A stretch of 64,000 nt of DNA. Source: Flavobacterium kayseriense. Its GTDB lineage: Bacteria > Bacteroidota > Bacteroidia > Flavobacteriales > Flavobacteriaceae. The stretch lies in the NCBI RefSeq assembly GCF_014305095.1, contig NZ_JACRUI010000001.1, positions 729,695 through 793,694 of the forward strand. Direction: 5' to 3'. Below, piece by piece: positions 23,806-32,638 of the stretch. Position 1 is the first letter of the stretch, and each line of letters opens with the position of its first letter. A program made the translations under genes and the position numbers. The notes beneath the pieces are model-generated. The model did no database searches and was not told where the DNA came from. It saw only the letters and a program-made list of their open reading frames with translations.

Positions 23806-25428
23806 CTATTTTATCGATGCTAAAATGTCTGGAAGTGCAAATGAAAACGCAAGTATTGCAATGAAGAATACAACTAATATCAACACATCTTTAGAGTAAA
23901 TATCTTCTTTACGAACGCTAAACACAATATTGGTATCCGTATTTTTTTCTGTTTTATAGATAGCACTAAATACTAATGCTAATACGAAAGTGATAACAAA
24001 ACCGGTTAGGTTAAACCAAATCCAGAAAATATCATTAAAAAAGTATTTGATCGTAACATTGATCAAAACTCCACCTATAATCCCAACGTTCATCCCAATA
24101 TAATTCACTCTTTTTACTAAAATAGCAATTATAAATGTAGCTAGGATAGGGCCATAAAATTGAGATGATATCATGTTAATCAACTCAATTACGGTTCCGC
24201 CATTATTCCCAAAAAGATAAGCCGATGCGATACAAACAATCCCCCAGAATATAATGGAAATCTTAGAAAGCTGCATGTACTTAGCCTGACTTAGTTTTAC
24301 TTTTCCTCTATTAAAAAGATCTTCAACTGTTACCGCTCCAAGTGAGTGAATTGTTGCACTTACTGATGACATAGCCGCTGATAAAATCCCTACGATTAAA
24401 ATTCCAATTAATCCGTGTGGCAAGTATTTCATAATGAAAACAGGCAACATCAAATCAGGTTTGAAACCGTTTTTGAGAAATTCTTCTGGATAATTTTTTT
24501 GAGTTAATGAAGCAATTTCGTTCATGAAATCAGGAGTCAAATGCACTAATGCACCGATGATTAAACCCATAATACAATAGGTCAATACCACAGGGAAACG
24601 CAATAATCCGTTTGTCAATAATATTTTCTTAGCCGAGTTTTCGTCTTTAGCCGATATCAATCGTTGTGCTTGTGTTTGATCTGTTCCGTAGTATGAAAGG
24701 TATAAAAATAATCCACCTAGTACCATTGGCAAAAGCCCATAAGTACCACCGTCAAACCCTAAATTAGGGACATCAATTACTTGCAAACGCTCGCTATCAA
24801 AACCAGTAAAATTAGGATTGGCTTTAAGAACATCCCAACCGTAATAAATACAGATAAGTAATCCGCCGAACAAAATTACCATTTGAATCGCATCACCCCA
24901 AACCACCGCTTTCATTCCGCCCATATACGAATACACGATTGTGATAATGGTAATTAAAAGAATGGTCCAGTGAAAACTAATACTCAAGACTGATTGTAAA
25001 ATAATTGCAATGGTGTACACACCCACACCCGTAGATAGCGAGCGACTTATTTGAAAAACAACACTCAATACAATTCGAGTAGAAGATGAAAAACGTCTTT
25101 CGACAAATTCATAAATACTCACAATATTAGCTCTGTATAATGGCGGAACAATGATCAACATAATTCCGATCATGGCCAATGGCACCGCCAACTCAAAGGT
25201 CAACCACTTCATCCCGCCGCCCTGAGCTAATCCAACAAACGCAGGAGCCGAAATAAAACTGATCGCAGAGAGTTGGGTCGCCATAGCGGATAAACTCAAT
25301 GGAAACCACCCCATATCTTTACCACCCAAAAAATAATCTTTTCCGTCCTTGTTCTCTTTAAAAAACACTCCTAACCCTAGAAAGGCAATTAGGTAAACAA
25401 CGACTACGATATAATCAATCCAGTTCAT
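23806..25428 (-). CDS. Sodium:solute symporter (SSS family)
   Basis: The 540-residue inner-membrane protein has about 13-14 hydrophobic segments. It shows SSS-family features: DYFLGGKDMGWFPLSLSAMATQLSAISFISAPAF in the first 65 residues, and GILSAAMSSVSATIHS near 350-365, which contributes the sodium site. Members import sugars, carboxylates and similar solutes. Here it would carry the periplasmic substrate or product into the cytoplasm. It starts 18 bases after the GH63-like gene in the same operon. Confidence 0.94.
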   Translation of the reverse strand: MNWIDYIVVVVYLIAFLGLGVFFKENKDGKDYFLGGKDMGWFPLSLSAMATQLSAISFISAPAFVGLAQGGGMKWLTFELAVPLAMIGIMLIIVPPLYRANIVSIYEFVERRFSSSTRIVLSVVFQISRSLSTGVGVYTIAIILQSVLSISFHWTILLITIITIVYSYMGGMKAVVWGDAIQMVILFGGLLICIYYGWDVLKANPNFTGFDSERLQVIDVPNLGFDGGTYGLLPMVLGGLFLYLSYYGTDQTQAQRLISAKDENSAKKILLTNGLLRFPVVLTYCIMGLIIGALVHLTPDFMNEIASLTQKNYPEEFLKNGFKPDLMLPVFIMKYLPHGLIGILIVGILSAAMSSVSATIHSLGAVTVEDLFNRGKVKLSQAKYMQLSKISIIFWGIVCIASAYLFGNNGGTVIELINMISSQFYGPILATFIIAILVKRVNYIGMNVGIIGGVLINVTIKYFFNDIFWIWFNLTGFVITFVLALVFSAIYKTEKNTDTNIVFSVRKEDIYSKDVLILVVFFIAILAFSFALPDILASIK

Positions 25429-25446
25429 AAAGATTTATTTATAAAA

Positions 25447-26757
25447 TTAATTCTCTAACATGTCTAAAAACAGCGCCGCACTCCAAGAGAAATTACCGCC
25501 TCCATATCCTTTAGCATCTTCTGTATATTCTGATTTTCTTGCATCAAAATATTCATAGAAACCTACTTTTTTCAAGATCTCAATACTGTCTGATTTTACT
25601 CTTGCAGCGATATCTTTGTATCCATACTCTTTTAAACCATTGTATAAAATCCAGTTTAAGTTAATCCAAACTGGTCCTCTCCAGTATTTTTTAGGATTGA
25701 AACGTTCGCTTGTAGGGTCAAATGAAGCACATAAGTACATATCATGGCCACCAAATTTAGTCATCATCGTATTAATGATTGTTGCCGCTTGTTCCTTGCT
25801 TGGGATTCCCGCAAACAATGGCGAAAATGAGGAAGAACTTACAAAACGGATTGGCTTTTCGTTTCTTAAATCATAATGAATATAAGCGCCTAATTCGGCA
25901 TCATATAATTTTTCATTAAAAGCGCGAATGCTTTTCTCTTGCCATTTTTTCAGTTGTGCAATTTTATCATCGTTACCACCTATTAATTGGTACAAGTTAA
26001 TCAATGAATCATTAGACTTAATCAACATCGAATTAAACAAAGGATCTTGAACTAAAAACGGCGATAGCTCCGCTATTTTTGCATCATCATAATTATGCTC
26101 TTTTGCTATTTGGATAATGTGTAAATAGTGATCGTATTCTCTTTTTGAAGGTCTTTGGGATGCATCAACATGTGTGGTGTCTCTACGCTCAAAAGTATAT
26201 TCTGGTGGGTTCATAGTCAACCAAATATCATCCCAAATAGGTGAATTATCGGTTCCTGATTCCCAATTGTGGTAGATGTAGACTAAACCTTCATTTTGAG
26301 GATCTCTTTTAGTGTAGAAATAATTATGATTGTCGTAAACTTTATCAATGTTTTCTTTGATGAAGCTTAATACATCCGCTTTGTCTGTCCCAATTTCGTA
26401 CATTTTTTCTAATGTAAAACCTAGAACGGGTGGCTGTGTCATTCCTGTAGAAGGATATGCGTCATTTGATTCAGGATGTAATTTTGATAAATGAAAATCA
26501 CGTCCTGGAAAATAACTATCTGTTTCAACGTGAAAAACAATATGCGGAATAAATCCGTTGCCCCATTGTGAATCCAAAAGTGTTTTCATCTCTTTCTTGG
26601 CTTTATCCATATCATAATGTGCAAAACCAATGGCTATAAAACCGGAATCCCACTTCCATTGAAAAGGGTACAACCCTTTGCACGGGATCGAATATCCTTT
26701 TTCTTGAAAATTATCGTTTAAGATGTTTTTGGCCTCTTTAATTAAGTCCTTTTCCAT
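25447..26757 (-). CDS. GH63-type glycoside hydrolase, candidate mannosyl-/glucosylglycerate hydrolase
   Basis: The 436-residue protein is an (alpha/alpha)6-barrel enzyme of the GH63 / MGH1-like group. Motifs are YPFQWKWDSGF (30-40), WESGTDNSPIWDD (165-177, with the likely general acid Asp170), YWRGPVWINLNW near 359-370, and a C-terminal GYGGGNFSWSAALFLD preceded by Glu residues that include the probable base. It is short, like mannosylglycerate and glucosylglycerate hydrolases, and has no signal peptide, so it acts in the cytoplasm. I chose ATG 26757; an upstream frame would encode the terminator hairpin at 26770-26808. The neighbouring glycerate kinase supports a glycerate-releasing role. 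Trehalase or another alpha-glucosidase is the alternative. Confidence 0.85.
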   Translation of the reverse strand: MEKDLIKEAKNILNDNFQEKGYSIPCKGLYPFQWKWDSGFIAIGFAHYDMDKAKKEMKTLLDSQWGNGFIPHIVFHVETDSYFPGRDFHLSKLHPESNDAYPSTGMTQPPVLGFTLEKMYEIGTDKADVLSFIKENIDKVYDNHNYFYTKRDPQNEGLVYIYHNWESGTDNSPIWDDIWLTMNPPEYTFERRDTTHVDASQRPSKREYDHYLHIIQIAKEHNYDDAKIAELSPFLVQDPLFNSMLIKSNDSLINLYQLIGGNDDKIAQLKKWQEKSIRAFNEKLYDAELGAYIHYDLRNEKPIRFVSSSSFSPLFAGIPSKEQAATIINTMMTKFGGHDMYLCASFDPTSERFNPKKYWRGPVWINLNWILYNGLKEYGYKDIAARVKSDSIEILKKVGFYEYFDARKSEYTEDAKGYGGGNFSWSAALFLDMLEN

Positions 26758-26769
26758 GTTGTTATTTAT

Positions 26770-26808
26770 TAAAAAAGATGCCTTGATGAATAAATACCAA
26801 GGCATCTT
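26770..26808 (-). terminator. Intra-operon terminator after the TonB receptor gene
   Basis: AAGATGCCTTG (26775-26785) and CAAGGCATCTT (26798-26808) form a perfect 11-bp stem. On the minus strand T residues follow. It lies 14 bases after the receptor stop codon and before the GH63 start, so receptor transcripts may partly stop here, giving more receptor than enzyme mRNA. Confidence 0.85.
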
Positions 26809-26821
26809 AGCTTTTATTGTT

Positions 26822-29428
26822 TTAAAAAGTAAATGTCAAGTTCATTAATGCCGTTCTTGGGATAATTGGTCTACCCACAAAGAATTGCTCATCTGTTTGA
26901 TTATCACCTAATCTTGGCGAACCTTCCGTAATTCCAGCAGAATTAAATAAGTTGAAAGACTGCGCTCCTACTCTAAGTGTTTCGTTATCAGATCCAACAT
27001 TGAAAGTATATCCTAAACTTAAATCAACAATTCCAAAACCTTGTAATTTGATTGTATTAGCGTCATTTGTGAATTTATCACCAGCATAGTTATAATCAAG
27101 ATTCGCGTCAAAATTTGATTTATCATAAGACAATCCTAATTTTGTCATTACATTAGGTTGTCTAGCCAATTTGTTTCCTACATAAGTTGGATTATTTTCA
27201 GACTTGGTCAACTCATGTTTTTGGTAAGTAAACGTACCGTTAAATGCAAATCCAGGGATAAATCTCCAGTTCCACGTACTTTCAATACCATACGATTTTG
27301 TGTCTTGTAAATCTACCTTTTCAATGAAACCACCTGAGTTATTTGGGTCATTAATAAATTGCACGTTTCTTCTATCAGACAAATTTGCTGAGTATAACGC
27401 TACCGTTCCAGAGAAATCTCCTTTACCATATTTCAAACCTGCTTCGGCTTGAATAATTTTCTCCGGAGAATACGTATTTGGATTACCTAGAGCATCAAAT
27501 TTTACAGAACGTAATTCTGGGAAGAAATACCCTTTAGAAAAGTTACCATAAACGCTTGTACTTGTACTTATTTTGTACAATGCTGCTAATGAAATTGCGT
27601 AATCACTCGTAGAAACATGTGCACGTTGGTATGCTCCAGTTCCCCAAATTACTTTATCAATACCCACGATACCAGTTGCATATTGAGTAGTTGCTAAATT
27701 GTACTCTTTTGATTTTTCGTTTTCAATTGTTCCAGAAGCTGTTTCATGTCTGAAACCGATATCGAAATTCCATTTCTCTAATTTGATTTGATCCGTTAAG
27801 AAAAAAGCCAATTTATTACTTGAAATGTTTTTATTAGAATATCCAGTAGCTGTATTAGTTACTCCGTTTACAGTATAACCAGAAAGGTTTACTAATCTTG
27901 GGCGGTTACTGTATTCGCTTAAATAACTCGTTGTGATATTCAAATCTCCTGCAGATGATCTAGACATAAATGTTCCCGCCGTAACAGTATGAATTCCCAT
28001 TTTGTTGATTATTTTAATCTCAGATACTAATTCGTCTAATGGACGAACTCTGTCTACAATTCTGTTTTCGAATAAAAGAGCAGAAGCTGGCAAAGCTGCA
28101 CCGTTTATAGTTGTAAAATTACCTGACGTTATGCCTCTAGTTGCTTTGAATTGATCTTGTGTTTCAACAGCTTTTGCACCTGTAACACCACTTCCGTCCG
28201 TAAAAAAGTTAAATTGATTCTGATATTGAGATTTTCTAATTTTTGCATCAATACTGAAATTATCTGAAAAATTATGTACAAAATTAGTCATGAAATATCC
28301 CCCTTTTGTAGCAACTCCATCTTTAATATTTGATGTAAACATTCCGTTTGGTGTAGCATATGAAATATCAGAAACGGCAGCTGTTTGCAAAGTCAAAATT
28401 TCTTTTCCGTCGTTACCAATAGGTCTTGTTCTGCTTCCTCCTTGTAATGGGTAAGGCAAAAAGAATTGTACTTTATCGTCAATTACTTGTCCAGAAAAGG
28501 TAATCGTACTTTTGTCAGTTACTTTTTTTACATTAGCACGTATTTGGTATCCTTCAGTTGGCAATCCTGTTTTGATTGGTCCTTCATCATAACGATAAAA
28601 CCCTGTTACGGCATAGAATAAATTAGAATCTTTCCCTCCTAATTGTCCACTAGACAAGAAATCTGCTTTGTATCTAGAATTAGTCCCTACTTCGGTCTTC
28701 AAAATATTTTTGGGAGTCACTGAACCTGTTTCACTTGTATAGTTAATAATACCTGCAACAGAACCTGCACCATATAATACTGATGAACCACCACGAATGA
28801 ACTCTAAACTTTTCATACCAATGTCTGTTCTAAAATAAACATCATGAGCAGAAGAGTTTAATCCAAAAGTAGATAATACCGGCATTCCATCTATTTGCAA
28901 AGGATTAAATTGAAATTGACCTCCAGAAGGTAAACCTCTCACAAACACGTTGGATGCTACTTCACCACCACCATTCTCAGTAGTAATTCCAGGTACACTT
29001 CGCAAAATATTAGCTTGGCTACTTGTGTTTAATTTTGTTAAATCTTTTGCGCTAAAAGAAGTAATCGAAACGGGAGTTTCTTTTTGTGAACGCTTAACCG
29101 AAGTTGCAGTCAAAACAACTTCATCTAAACTTTCAATACTTTCCTTTAATGTAAAGTTTACCGTTGCGTCTCCAGAGAAGTTTACGGTTTTTGTTTGCGG
29201 AAAAAAACCAATGTACATCACTTTGACTTTTTGCTCTCCGCTTAGCTTTGCAGTAATCTCGTATTTTCCGTCAAAATCTGTTGTGGTTCCATAATTAGTT
29301 CCAGCTACAACAACATTCACCTGTGGTAAAGGGTTGTTTTTCTCATCCGTCACCGTCCCTTTAATAGTCGATTGTGAATAGGAACAGGTTCCTATCAGCA
29401 ATAAAAATATTTTTAAATATTTTTTCAT
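26822..29428 (-). CDS. TonB-dependent outer-membrane receptor
   Basis: The 868-residue protein starts with a signal peptide (about 1-18, ending CSYSQS) and a carboxypeptidase-D regulatory-like domain (GTVTDEKNNPLPQVNVVVAG, about 24-100). A TonB plug (about 115-230, with SVPGITTENGGGE) and a C-terminal 22-stranded barrel ending in a Phe (NLTFTF) follow. It imports the locus substrate across the outer membrane using TonB energy. No SusD-like lipoprotein is present, so it is not a standard SusCD pair; this suits a small substrate. It is the first gene of the operon, divergent from lacI. Confidence 0.95.
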   Translation of the reverse strand: MKKYLKIFLLLIGTCSYSQSTIKGTVTDEKNNPLPQVNVVVAGTNYGTTTDFDGKYEITAKLSGEQKVKVMYIGFFPQTKTVNFSGDATVNFTLKESIESLDEVVLTATSVKRSQKETPVSITSFSAKDLTKLNTSSQANILRSVPGITTENGGGEVASNVFVRGLPSGGQFQFNPLQIDGMPVLSTFGLNSSAHDVYFRTDIGMKSLEFIRGGSSVLYGAGSVAGIINYTSETGSVTPKNILKTEVGTNSRYKADFLSSGQLGGKDSNLFYAVTGFYRYDEGPIKTGLPTEGYQIRANVKKVTDKSTITFSGQVIDDKVQFFLPYPLQGGSRTRPIGNDGKEILTLQTAAVSDISYATPNGMFTSNIKDGVATKGGYFMTNFVHNFSDNFSIDAKIRKSQYQNQFNFFTDGSGVTGAKAVETQDQFKATRGITSGNFTTINGAALPASALLFENRIVDRVRPLDELVSEIKIINKMGIHTVTAGTFMSRSSAGDLNITTSYLSEYSNRPRLVNLSGYTVNGVTNTATGYSNKNISSNKLAFFLTDQIKLEKWNFDIGFRHETASGTIENEKSKEYNLATTQYATGIVGIDKVIWGTGAYQRAHVSTSDYAISLAALYKISTSTSVYGNFSKGYFFPELRSVKFDALGNPNTYSPEKIIQAEAGLKYGKGDFSGTVALYSANLSDRRNVQFINDPNNSGGFIEKVDLQDTKSYGIESTWNWRFIPGFAFNGTFTYQKHELTKSENNPTYVGNKLARQPNVMTKLGLSYDKSNFDANLDYNYAGDKFTNDANTIKLQGFGIVDLSLGYTFNVGSDNETLRVGAQSFNLFNSAGITEGSPRLGDNQTDEQFFVGRPIIPRTALMNLTFTF

Positions 29429-29523
29429 TTTGGTTGAATTTAAATTAAAATTTTGGTTTATTATTTTTGGCTAAACTAAAATGTTTCCAATCATATTGAT
29501 ACCAAAAAAATACAAAAAATGAC

Positions 29524-29550
29524 CGCAAACGTTTGCGGAAACGTTTGCAA
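29524..29550. promoter_or_regulatory. Two LacI-family operators between receptor and regulator genes
   Basis: CGCAAACGTTTGCG (29524-29537) is a perfect 14-base palindrome with a central CpG. A second site, GGAAACGTTTGC (29537-29548), has its centre exactly 12 bases further on. They have the form of LacI/GalR-family operators and lie between the divergent receptor and lacI-type genes. The second overlaps the -33 element of the regulator gene. Confidence 0.85.
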
Positions 29551-29573
29551 AGAAAATAAAATTAGTACTTTTG
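29544..29573 (+). promoter_or_regulatory. Promoter of the lacI-type gene
   Basis: TTTG at 29544-29547, 18 bases of spacer and TACTTTTG at 29566-29573 fit the Bacteroidota consensus. The ATG is 18 bases further on. Its -33 lies inside the second operator, which suggests autoregulation. Confidence 0.7.
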
Positions 29574-29591
29574 CTGATATATCTATAAAAA

Positions 29592-30635
29592 ATGCGCAAA
29601 AAAAATATTGTTACCTTAAAAAAATTGGCCTTAGATTTAGGATTGTCCATTTCTACTGTTTCAAGAGCATTGAATAATCATGTAGACATTAGTGAAGAAA
29701 CAAAAGAGCGTGTTAAGGCTTACGCCAATAAAGTAAAGTATGCTCCCAATTTATTTGCCCGAGGATTTCGTTCTCACAAATCAAATATAATTGGGGTTAT
29801 AATCCCTAATATAGAACACCAATTTACCGCCACCTTATTAAAAGGAATTATTTATAATGCAGATTTAAATGGGTACAAGGTTATTATATGTGAATCCTTT
29901 AATAATGAACAAAAACAAGCGGCACTTCTGGAAACGATGGTGCAGTTTGGTGTTGACGGTGTTTTATTATCTCTAGTGAAAAAAAATACTAATGTGGATG
30001 ATATTCTAGACATGATGCAACACATTCCGCTCATCCTATTTGACAGAGTGTCTGCAAAAGTGCCTTGCACACAAATTGTTATTGACGATGAAGAAGCTGC
30101 TTTTAAAGCGGTGGAACATCTTATTAATACCGGAAAAAAGAGAATTGCAATTATCAAAGAAACAGAAAGCTCTATTCTGTCTGAAAAGAGATATGCGGGA
30201 TATTTAAAAGCCTTGAAAAAGTACGGAATAGATTTAGACGAAAGTCTGGTTATGAGTTGCGAAAATCTTACGATTGCTGAGGGTAAAAAGCTTGCAAAGG
30301 TATTAGTTGGCTTGCAGCATAAACCGGATGGTATATTTGCTATTACAGACGAAGCAGGAATAGGGGCAATTCAAGTTTTGACGAAAAACAAAATAAAAAT
30401 TCCCGAAGACGTTGCAGTCGTCGGATTTAGTAATTCAGTTTACTCGACAATCATCAAGCCTAAACTTACAACGATTGATCAACCCGGAAATAGAATTGGT
30501 GAGGTGGCCATCAAGTATTTAATTGACGAAATAAACAGTGATACTGTTATTAGTTACAAAACTATTGAAATCAAAACTAATTTGATCGTACGAGGTTCCT
30601 CTTTTAAATCTTTAAAAAGGAATAGCTTATCCTAA
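29592..30635 (+). CDS. LacI/GalR-family transcriptional regulator
   Basis: The 347-residue protein has an N-terminal LacI helix-turn-helix (TLKKLALDLGLSISTVSRAL near 6-25) and the hinge-helix region (VKYAPNLFARGFRSHKS near 48-64). A periplasmic-binding-protein-like sensor domain follows, with motifs FDRVS (near 156), DDEEAAFKAVEHLI and VVGFSN. It probably controls the divergent receptor-hydrolase-symporter-kinase operon through the two palindromes at 29524-29550, responding to the substrate or a breakdown product. Effector identity is inferred only from the neighbours. Confidence 0.94.
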   Translation: MRKKNIVTLKKLALDLGLSISTVSRALNNHVDISEETKERVKAYANKVKYAPNLFARGFRSHKSNIIGVIIPNIEHQFTATLLKGIIYNADLNGYKVIICESFNNEQKQAALLETMVQFGVDGVLLSLVKKNTNVDDILDMMQHIPLILFDRVSAKVPCTQIVIDDEEAAFKAVEHLINTGKKRIAIIKETESSILSEKRYAGYLKALKKYGIDLDESLVMSCENLTIAEGKKLAKVLVGLQHKPDGIFAITDEAGIGAIQVLTKNKIKIPEDVAVVGFSNSVYSTIIKPKLTTIDQPGNRIGEVAIKYLIDEINSDTVISYKTIEIKTNLIVRGSSFKSLKRNSLS

Positions 30636-30709
30636 TTCGTTTGTTGAGAACAGTAAATAAATAAAATCTAATTTTCACATGAGACTTTTATGGTTCTGTT
30701 TTAAGAGAG

Positions 30710-30784
30710 CTATTTCAAATGATCCAACATGTCTTTAGTCATGCTCTCTAAGTCAAATTGGTGTTGCCAGTTCCAATCAGCTTT
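30710..30784 (-). pseudogene. Orphan 3' end of a threonine dehydrogenase gene
   Basis: Translated on the minus strand, this stretch reads KADWNWQHQFDLESMTKDML then DHLK and a stop. That matches 19 of 24 residues at the C-terminus of the intact tdh at 31700-32638; the DNA is 60/75 identical by my count. Upstream of 30784 the frame no longer matches and soon meets a stop. It is a detached remnant of a divergent tdh allele. The rest of the 30636-30879 gap holds nothing I recognise. Confidence 0.85.
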
Positions 30785-30879
30785 AAGGTATTGAAGTCTT
30801 CTAAAAAATTATAAAAATAGGGTATTGTCAGTGCAGGAAAAGTTGTTTACTTTAGAAACAATAAAAAGTTGTCTTGACC

Positions 30880-31077
30880 ATGAAAAACAAACTTACAATT
30901 ATCGCAATATTATTTCTGCTGGTGAACTTTAGTTGCAAAGCACAATCAATTGTACCGCTAGAAACAAGAGTAAATTACTATAATTCAATAAATGGCATTC
31001 CTGAAACTATTACTTATTTTAAGGATATTAACCATTTGCTAGATAAATATGTAGGTAATTGGAAATACAGTTTATAA
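30880..31077 (+). pseudogene. Truncated DUF6705-like lipoprotein gene
   Basis: The 65-residue frame encodes a lipoprotein-type signal (LLVNFSCKAQ) and then NGIPETITYFKDINHLLDKYVGNWKYSL before a stop. The opening and the DKYVGxWK motif match the N-terminus of the DUF6705 family. From memory, intact members are more than twice this length, so the C-terminal domain is missing. I see no continuation in the next 37 bases before the following gene. It may be expressed as a short lipopeptide but is best seen as a decayed copy. Confidence 0.65.
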
Positions 31078-31114
31078 GCAAATACATTGTAATTAATATT
31101 AAAAATCAAAAAAT

Positions 31115-31543
31115 ATGAAAAGTTTTCTTTTAACTTTCAGCTTGTTTTTAACCTTATTAAGTAGTGGTTGTCAGGCTCAACAGTTGGTTAAAACGATAAA
31201 AGACGTATATCTATTGAAAAATAATGAGCAACGGTTTCTCAACAAACCTTTAAAAAACGTTCTCAAAGAATTAAAACCTAAGATAAAATCAGGTTATGCA
31301 AGTAATGATAATCCATTCTTTTTTAGATTTAAATTTATAACTCATGAGCAACAGAAAATGCAAAAGAGCGATACGAGTTGGGAAGACCAAGTGTCTTTGT
31401 ATGTTTATGTAAAAAATCCAATTGATTGGAAATGGGAAAATAGACCTGAATCGATTGGTTTGGCATGGACTAAAGAAGATGCAGCAAAGTACGGTGACCT
31501 TATTGTAGTGAGAATTAAAGTTATTAACCAACCTAAAGAGTAA
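31115..31543 (+). CDS. Hypothetical lipoprotein
   Basis: The 142-residue protein has a clear lipoprotein signal with lipobox LSSGC (Cys19). A mixed alpha/beta domain of about 120 residues follows, with a basic helical start (LKNVLKELKPKIKSG) and a hydrophobic ending (DLIVVRIKVI). No family is recognised. It starts 37 bases after the truncated DUF6705 gene, with which it may form a transcription unit, and ends before a bidirectional terminator shared with tdh. Confidence 0.7.
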   Translation: MKSFLLTFSLFLTLLSSGCQAQQLVKTIKDVYLLKNNEQRFLNKPLKNVLKELKPKIKSGYASNDNPFFFRFKFITHEQQKMQKSDTSWEDQVSLYVYVKNPIDWKWENRPESIGLAWTKEDAAKYGDLIVVRIKVINQPKE

Positions 31544-31649
31544 ATAACAATTATTTTCAGATTTATAATTGATTCATGATAATAGAGAAATAGAATAAAA
31601 AATATTTTATAAACTATGATCGCCTAAATTTAAAAATTAGTGTTCTAAC

Positions 31650-31685
31650 AATAATGCCGCAAAACTGATATTTTGCGGCATTATT
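31650..31685. terminator. Bidirectional terminator between lipoprotein gene and tdh
   Basis: AATAATGCCGCAAAA (from 31650) pairs with TTTTGCGGCATTATT (31671-31685) around a six-base loop. It is placed between two convergent genes. Confidence 0.85.
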
Positions 31686-31699
31686 TATTCTTTAACGAC

Positions 31700-32638
31700 T
31701 TATTCTAAATGCTCTAGCATATCTTTAGTCATGCTTTCTAAATCAAATTGATGTTTCCATCCCCAATCAGCTCTAGCGCTACTGTCATCAATGCTTGCAG
31801 GCCAGCTGTCAGCTATTTTTTGACGAAAGTCAGGTTCATAGGTAATCGTAAATTCGGGAATATGCTTGGTAATTTCGGCAGCAATCTCCGTTGGTGTAAA
31901 ACTCATTGCAGCTAAATTATAGGAGGAATGAATTTTGATTTGATCAGCAGGTGCTTGCATAATTCTTATAGTCGCCGCAATAGCATCATCCATATACATC
32001 ATTGGCATTTTAGTTTCTGATGATAGGAAACACTCATACGTTTTATCGGCTAGTGCTTTGTGAAAAATATCCACAGCATAGTCTGTAGTACCACCACCAG
32101 GAGGTGATGACCAGCTTATCAAACCAGGATAGCGTATGCTACGCACATCGACGCCAAAGATATTGTGGTAGTACTCACACCATCTTTCTCCTGCTTGTTT
32201 ACTAATTCCGTATACAGTAGACGGCTCCATGATGGTGTACTGTGGGGTGTTCTCTTTTGGGGTTGTAGGTCCAAAAACAGCAATGCTAGATGGCCAAAAT
32301 ATTTTTTTGATTTTTCCGGCTTTCGCCAAATTCAAAACGTGAAACAAGGAGTTCATATTTAAATCCCAAGCAAAAGCAGGATTCTTCTCGGCAGTTGCAG
32401 ATAATAAAGCAGCCATCAAGTACACATCAGTAATTTGATGTACTTCTACTAAATGCTCAATTTGGTTGAAATCTAATGCATTAATTACTTCAAAGGGTCC
32501 AGCATTAACAACGTCGTTATTAAGCTTACGAATATCCGAAGCGATTACATTATCGGTTCCGTAAATTTTTCGTAGAGAATGCGTTAACTCGGTGCCTATT
32601 TGTCCACAAGCACCTATAATTAAGATTTTTGTACTCAT
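31700..32638 (-). CDS. tdh: L-threonine 3-dehydrogenase, SDR type
   Basis: The 312-residue NAD-dependent enzyme oxidises L-threonine to 2-amino-3-ketobutyrate in threonine breakdown. It is of the extended short-chain (GalE-like) type known from Flavobacterium, not the zinc type. Motifs are GACGQIG (9-15), PSS (116-118), YGISK (Tyr143, Lys147), YPGLISWSSPPGGGTTDYAVDIF near 168-190 and MPMMYMDDAI near 210-219, the last two diagnostic for this class. It is a single gene. A divergent copy of its 3' end lies at 30710-30784. Confidence 0.9.
   Translation of the reverse strand: MSTKILIIGACGQIGTELTHSLRKIYGTDNVIASDIRKLNNDVVNAGPFEVINALDFNQIEHLVEVHQITDVYLMAALLSATAEKNPAFAWDLNMNSLFHVLNLAKAGKIKKIFWPSSIAVFGPTTPKENTPQYTIMEPSTVYGISKQAGERWCEYYHNIFGVDVRSIRYPGLISWSSPPGGGTTDYAVDIFHKALADKTYECFLSSETKMPMMYMDDAIAATIRIMQAPADQIKIHSSYNLAAMSFTPTEIAAEITKHIPEFTITYEPDFRQKIADSWPASIDDSSARADWGWKHQFDLESMTKDMLEHLE

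Follow-up and report, generated by a model that had tools for sequence, protein, structure and literature searches.

The DNA analysed here, referred to as the window, is a stretch of 64,000 nucleotides (nt) from the 3.58 Mb genome of Flavobacterium kayseriense (contig NZ_JACRUI010000001.1, positions 729,695 to 793,694). It contains an intact tdh gene and, starting 916 bases past it on the same strand, an orphan tdh 3' end (the tail); between the two lies a small islet of lipoprotein genes (Table 1). Minus-strand positions 30713-30784 encode KADWNWQHQFDLESMTKDMLDHLK, and the TAG stop occupies 30710-30712. The gene name comes from an earlier note on this sequence; the encoded protein belongs to the Pfam family Epimerase and matched no NCBIfam equivalog at its cut-off.

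The two ends were aligned by a repeat search as a 75-nt direct repeat (30711-30785 and 31701-31775) with 81% identity, and tblastn with tdh recovered the tail over 24 amino acids (aa; 79%, E 1e-8). A 58-base piece of the tail had no match at three or fewer mismatches in 100 shuffles of the window. The coordinates, strand, length and identity of about 80% given for the orphan end by the earlier note were right. Apart from this pair, the search showed the terminator hairpin of tdh together with a small number of short inverted pairs, and it returned no long inverted ends.

Between tail and tdh there are two non-overlapping open reading frames (ORFs) of at least 40 aa, namely the truncated DUF6705 gene and the second lipoprotein gene that the earlier note had seen bracketed by the tdh ends; one 80-aa minus-strand frame overlaps the lipoprotein gene. 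The DUF6705 fragment has 65 aa and covers positions 1-44 of the 188 in the profile, while the lipoprotein-like protein, of 142 aa, has no Pfam family above cut-off. A structure prediction for the latter was discarded, its mean pLDDT (predicted local confidence) being 49. We found no toxin gene between tail and tdh.

Table 1. Features of the window around the two tdh ends
Feature	Position	Strand	Evidence
LacI-family regulator beyond the orphan end	29592..30635	+	profile match; comparison with F. sp. 28A and G270
3' flank of the orphan end, with decayed AGTCTAG-type terminator	30657..30709	-	homologous to the 3' flank of native tdh in other species
Orphan tdh 3' end, 24 codons and stop	30710..30784	-	sequence, tblastn, repeat search, pN/pS 0.14
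Junction and leader region	30786..30879	.	weak similarity to the leader of the toxin-like gene beside the F. xanthum and F. fryxellicola tails
Truncated DUF6705 lipoprotein gene, candidate immunity fragment	30880..31077	+	PF20448, E 7.7e-7
142-aa lipoprotein gene, orphan immunity candidate	31115..31543	+	family adjoins JAMM-motif genes elsewhere
Hairpin terminator of intact tdh, GCCGCAAAA type, unlike that of the orphan end	31650..31685	.	alignment and repeat search
Intact tdh, NAD-dependent epimerase-type protein	31700..32638	-	312-aa ORF; PF01370, E 8.6e-25

Two tdh alleles at one locus

Between the two window ends we count 7.3 changes at 9.8 synonymous and 6.7 at 62.2 non-synonymous sites, giving a ratio of non-synonymous to synonymous change per site (pN/pS) of 0.14, against a neutral decay expectation of about 1. 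The orphan end also has a flank of its own. When we searched 30640-30880 against 396 genomes of the genus, native tdh ends matched the tail together with the 53 bases past its stop, and the best match by E-value was the native tdh end and flank of genome G299 (77% over 30657-30778, E 9e-19). Finally, the decayed AGTCTAG...CTAGACT terminator on the orphan end is of a type found in F. rhamnosiphilum (L052) and at loci L051, L046, L071 and L045, unlike the GCCGCAAAA hairpin of the intact gene, which also occurs in F. sp. 28A, in F. xanthum and in the F. sp. 14A tail. Because of the low pN/pS, the separate flank and the distinct terminator type, the two ends look like working alleles of different lineages, and the orphan end appears to be the allele of another lineage rather than a local duplicate.

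A local tandem duplication of the tdh 3' end and its neighbour, followed by decay, would agree with the common strand and the short distance. In F. hiemivividum (L045:13982-14169), moreover, tail and tdh end are identical over a long stretch that spans stop and terminator and are divergent before it, reflecting either gene conversion between the ends or a recent exchange, and 2 of 17 tail pairs from various genes (those of mfd and of a 253-aa gene, see below) have a pN/pS of 0.7-0.8. Against this, pN/pS is 0.14 in the window and 0.22 pooled over the 17 pairs, the two window ends carry different terminators and the tdh of F. caseinilyticum is a mosaic, as described below; we give a duplication hardly any credence.

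Displaced tdh ends and a mosaic tdh in relatives

We compared the tdh loci of the window and of the best 80 of 556 relatives (78 Flavobacterium, 2 Flavobacteriaceae); 5 of the 80 have less than 3 kb of downstream sequence. A profile scan placed an orphan tail downstream on the tdh strand in 8 of the 81 loci, at +341 to +4225: those of the window, F. omnivorum, F. sp. 14A, F. hiemivividum, F. xanthum, F. fryxellicola, F. flabelliforme and F. caseinilyticum. The points at which homology starts range from -61 to -137 relative to the gene end. Tails were present in 7 of 10 tdh loci with an islet versus 0 of 70 without one, the islet queries having been drawn partly from tail-bearing loci. A binomial test over tails assumes independence, and the tails of L049 and L050 are related.

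Further tdh tails lie outside these loci in genomes G363, G223 and G270; that of G270 stands at a contig end beside a LacI gene, and its tdh ends a different contig. Several other matches were rejected. The second tdh match on contig 17 of G017, at first read as a distant tail, is a disrupted paralogue (54% over 310 aa), that of G052 is a paralogue inside a 325-aa open frame, and a weak minus-strand profile match at L073 (E 0.69) was not counted. The single tdh match of G002, also first taken for a distant tail, is a decayed tdh and was likewise left uncounted: the sole tdh at this locus (L173:9147-9376) is a decayed 3' remnant.

How a tail can arise is seen in F. caseinilyticum, whose tdh we compared with others in 78-nt windows. 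Over nt 1-390 its identity is 94-100% with F. psychrolimnae (L034) and 87-99% with L038 and L040; for L056 and L053, which are F. tiangeerense and F. sp. I-STPP5a, the figure is 78-92%. Over the last 78 nt, identity is 99-100% to L056 and L053 and 67-73% to L034, L038, L040 and L042. A stretch of 1083 bp that takes in the end of tdh (300 bp) and part of the islet has 95% identity to L053. The tail with its next 66 bases, on the other side, is 78-82% identical to the empty-site loci L038, L040, L042 and L048 and 73% to L060. Because it is other species that match the 3' part of tdh and the islet, and relatives with an empty site that match tail and flank, the foreign end arrived here with the islet and the native end was displaced outward. 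In F. omnivorum, too, tail and flank are 92% identical to empty-site L042 over 159 bp, and the alignment continues to an FAD-oxidoreductase gene. The import of DNA by recombination in tdh, which the earlier note had suggested for the window, is thus borne out in relatives by the mosaic tdh and the tail on an empty-site flank, along with the low pN/pS.

The F. caseinilyticum islet (L061:10939-15164) holds four immunity-type genes with pieces resembling different relatives, and a truncated toxin head adjoins its tail; repeated displacement would give such pieces.

Relatives with an islet-free tdh, as the earlier note had proposed to look for, do exist. One is F. sp. 28A (L037), in which LacI lies downstream of tdh, next to it; the LacI beside the G270 tail is 94% identical to that of the window. 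Next to LacI, window positions 23806-30635 include Pfam matches to a TonB-dependent receptor, an MGH1/trehalase-type glycoside hydrolase and a sodium:solute symporter, probably a locus for sugar use, and F. sp. 28A keeps these LacI-side genes in the same order.

Toxin and immunity candidates in the islets

Most islets contain a long gene whose head is of lipoprotein type and whose tip bears a JAMM (HNHxxxxxxSxxD) or HExxH-like motif, plus small lipoproteins; the mfd-side islet of L052 is without a long toxin-like gene. In three pairs from relatives, head and tip identities were 89/47%, 46/26% and 98/40%, the head being the constant part and the tip the variable one. The toxin-like tips end in a cysteine one or two residues before the stop, which may be a processing or attachment signal. 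Endings such as PCN, PCS, NCQ and SCNK occur whatever the tip type, and cysteine-ended toxin-like ORFs were seen at L035, L043, L045, L049, L050, L053, L055, L059, L152, L160, L162, L167, L170 and L185.

A Pfam scan (E 0.01) took 53 of the 65 listed islet ORFs, the other 12 belonging to L053, L055 and L056. It gave five DUF6705 matches and one each for SprT-like, Prok-JAB, a DDE transposase and four other families. DUF6705 itself was present in 36 of 131 genomes, in 34 of them above cut-off.

The family of the 142-aa window lipoprotein occurs in 33 of 398 genomes, the window genome included. A JAMM-motif gene lies directly upstream of it in 16 of 21 arrays, five being without one; these genes have a C-terminal cysteine, 13 carry HNHP, and the gap to the lipoprotein gene is 8-19 bases in 15 and an overlap in one. 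Because of this position we read the family as immunity proteins, and the window gene is probably an orphan immunity gene. One toxin-head type, of at least two, was searched for and found in 28 of 396 genomes, the window genome not being among them. The junction and leader region of the window is weakly similar to the leader of the toxin-like gene beside the F. xanthum and F. fryxellicola tails: a score of 33 compares with shuffle means of about 18 and was reached by 0 of 300 and 2 of 300 shuffles, with 10 regions compared. Toxicity and immunity are roles that we infer throughout from gene architecture.

Exchange of cassettes and their junctions

The close species F. xanthum and F. fryxellicola, compared block by block, are 95-100% identical up to tdh nt 800 and then fall to 87% and 70%. 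One gapped intergenic block follows at 24%, the immunity gene and most of the toxin tip stand at 48-62%, the tip border is at 69%, and the head, leader, tail and flank return to 81-100%. The swapped unit comprises the tdh 3' end, the immunity gene and the toxin tip, with a constant anchor on either side.

The insert of F. sp. 14A resembles F. frigidarium DNA (85% over 658 bp) that includes the end of tdh, an intergenic part and the closing portion of an amine-oxidase gene; where it meets the old tail, the two overlap by 3-8 bases, according to which proxy is used. Because this insert is an amine-oxidase fragment, and the insert of G223 a DUF418 gene, the scar arises from recombination at the gene and not from toxin genes alone.

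Another junction bears on how the far side closes. F. hiemivividum (L045) and G270 have the islet edge and its junction with the tdh tail in common, with 95% identity over the 134 nt before the tail; their tails are 83% and their terminators 93% identical, and in the 230 bases past the terminator no alignment exceeds 14 bases. One flank leads to an M1-peptidase-type gene, the other to a 135-aa gene and LacI. Compared in blocks, the two intact tdh genes reach 83-93% identity, which is less than the non-coding islet edge shows (95%). A shared junction with unlike flanks is expected if islet and tail entered two loci through the tail; alternatively, vertical descent was followed by a later insertion of one flank.

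Two readings gained in probability because of this junction. According to the first, which we consider quite possible if somewhat short of even, the tail is a carried homology arm, and the islet enters empty sites by two crossovers in one core gene, with no integrase and no shared downstream sequence. If so, the toxin-immunity islets of Flavobacterium would be recombinase-free mobile units docking at housekeeping 3' ends, and the end of the housekeeping gene would evolve together with the toxin. The second reading, of which we are a little more doubtful, is an ordinary homologous exchange on both sides, the donor already possessing islet and tail, so that the window lineage saw no illegitimate step. 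Besides the junction between unrelated flanks, it draws support from the G270 tail lying beside a LacI 94% identical to that of the window and from the F. xanthum/F. fryxellicola swap having run on two homologous anchors; the first tail of each lineage, however, would still require a one-sided event, and F. sp. 14A resembles one.

Orphan ends at other housekeeping genes

We scanned the last 60 residues of each ORF of at least 120 aa for copies outside ORFs. Among regions chosen by the lipoprotein family, 5 of 20 (301 ORFs) had tails of a neighbouring gene: glyS, comF, a PAS-domain gene together with dprA, dprA again, and tdh. Regions chosen by DUF6705 gave one in 20 (331 ORFs), from the 253-aa gene of no known family, and those chosen by a toxin head two in 27 (396 ORFs), from trpS and frr. 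No tail was found in 33 control regions (320 + 191 ORFs), one match in a likely spurious frame being set aside. The same scan of the 80 tdh loci (1008 ORFs) showed that mfd and an amine oxidase also bear tails. The names glyS, dprA, trpS, frr and mfd are NCBIfam assignments above the curated cut-off, and comF is one below it (E 3.8e-26).

Pooled, tails occur in 8 of 67 regions versus 0 of 33 controls (Fisher p 0.050), a comparison that includes the lipoprotein set which itself prompted the idea; with the DUF6705 and toxin-head sets alone the contrast is weak (3 of 47 versus 0 of 33). The generality of the scar is therefore shown by cases rather than by a firm rate.

Matches dropped by eye comprised array-internal toxin or immunity repeats (L182, two in L184, L156, six in L161, L166, L035, L055, L061, L221, two in L226, L227, L229 and L232) and likely spurious overlapping frames (two each in L072, L076 and L098, three in L084, four in L093, and control L247). 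The scar-bearing dprA (L162, L167) and comF (L160) belong to families linked to DNA uptake, possibly by chance. In G331 (L163), a 323-aa ORF lying 16 bases upstream of a lone lipoprotein gene ends like the TrpS of L218, which suggests that the trpS end may be another docking site.

Displaced 3' ends are the classic product of integrases, as with e14 in icd and SXT in prfC. Site-specific integration at the tdh 3' end, by an element that brought a replacement 3' end and later lost its integrase gene, would fit this pattern, and 3 of the 8 tail homologies do start at -121/-122. Yet the starts as a whole show no fixed attachment core, unrelated genes carry the same scar, what was inserted in F. 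sp. 14A is a piece of an amine-oxidase gene, and no integrase or resolvase family appeared among the 53 scanned islet ORFs, which include one transposase; the window genome has 8 Phage_integrase matches, none of them inside the window. We consider such integration highly unlikely. The earlier note had offered integration at a gene 3' end that left a duplicated terminus, and had proposed looking for integrase remnants: a duplicated terminus does describe the product, while the integrase part finds no counterpart in these searches, in the varying breakpoints or in the range of genes affected.

Proposed mechanism

With high probability, the best explanation is that recombination anchored in a housekeeping gene swaps toxin/immunity cassettes, displacing the old end of the gene by horizontal transfer. 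Incoming DNA, made up of the 3' part of tdh and an adjoining toxin/immunity islet, would recombine by homology inside the resident tdh; one 3' end would complete a working tdh, and the other would be left beyond the islet with its own flank. The far side would join illegitimately at first entry, or via a tdh tail already on the islet in later ones. In later exchanges the housekeeping gene would be one anchor and the constant toxin-like head the other, with tdh end, immunity gene and tip travelling together. In the window, the toxin-like gene would have been lost and the immunity-type genes alone left behind.

Homology-facilitated illegitimate recombination in transformable bacteria resembles this process, foreign DNA being gained beside a homologous gene through one homologous anchor and one short-homology join. 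It is known from laboratory transformation; here it is proposed on the strength of scars in genomes, with proxies standing in for the parents. ComEC and DprA family members are present in the window genome, and natural transformation is a plausible route of uptake; conjugation or transduction are also possible. Riemerella was described as competent and F. johnsoniae as not so under the same conditions (PMC7965970).

Several observations weigh against the proposed exchange anchored in a housekeeping gene. No neighbour-gene tail was present in 44 of the 47 regions chosen by DUF6705 or toxin head, and the tdh tail of G223 (L259:3216-5779) flanks a single DUF418 membrane-protein gene and no toxin islet. 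The clustering of three homology starts and the high pN/pS of the mfd and 253-aa tails, both mentioned above, count on the same side, and F. sp. 14A provides the single far junction comparable to both parents, as proxies. In the window itself, the allele closest to the orphan end, which the earlier note had proposed to seek, did not emerge: among the matches listed from the 396 genomes none is close, the top identity over at least 60 nt being 84%. The intact tdh end and its terminator, in turn, are nearest to F. sp. 28A (86-90% over the last windows), the relative in which LacI adjoins tdh with no islet; such a likeness would be expected if the intact end were native here and the tail foreign.

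On the other hand, the LacI-side tail of G270 has an AGTCTAG-type terminator, which fits a tdh-LacI locus whose native end survives as the window tail. Because the G270 terminator and the F. sp. 28A likeness point opposite ways, either direction of transfer is compatible with the data for the window.

Comparison with known systems and significance

For effector-immunity modules of the Vibrio cholerae type VI secretion system (T6SS), one side is a homology anchor, the far end is proposed to join via homology-facilitated illegitimate recombination, and old immunity genes with an effector 3' end are shifted outward, giving orphan immunity arrays (PMC5361080); a second Vibrio case appears in PMC9711863. 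The Flavobacterium islets share the homology-anchored module, the displaced old ends and the candidate orphan immunity genes, and the proposed process is of the same kind. They differ in that the Vibrio anchor and displaced end lie within the T6SS cluster, whereas those of Flavobacterium lie in unrelated housekeeping genes and the toxin candidates have lipoprotein-type heads.

The latter are reminiscent of SitA of Myxococcus, described as polymorphic lipoprotein toxins with immunity partners, delivered by outer membrane exchange (PMC5562445, PMC8546572); polymorphic lipoprotein-type toxin candidates with immunity partners are the likeness, drawn from description and not from sequence. As with e14 in icd and SXT in prfC, a 3' end of the gene has been displaced beyond the insert; the scar differs from them in that no integrase was found, there is no common core and several unrelated genes are targets. 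Among the titles listed in searches of an open-access library, none pointed to displaced housekeeping-gene ends at toxin islets. Within these searches, what is apparently new is the anchor in unrelated housekeeping genes, the orphan housekeeping ends as scars and the lipoprotein-headed genes of Flavobacterium.

The islet thus acquires a meaning beyond that given to it by the earlier note, as part of a toxin/immunity exchange system whose scar recurs at other housekeeping genes. Being short, the scar is easily scanned for; it can orient and order acquisitions, and it offers a route to uncatalogued toxin and immunity families that needs no prior sequence. For Flavobacterium, the turnover of toxin and immunity genes would be tied to housekeeping genes, meaning that the exchange of a neighbouring cassette can leave tdh, glyS, trpS, frr, dprA, comF or mfd with a foreign 3' end.
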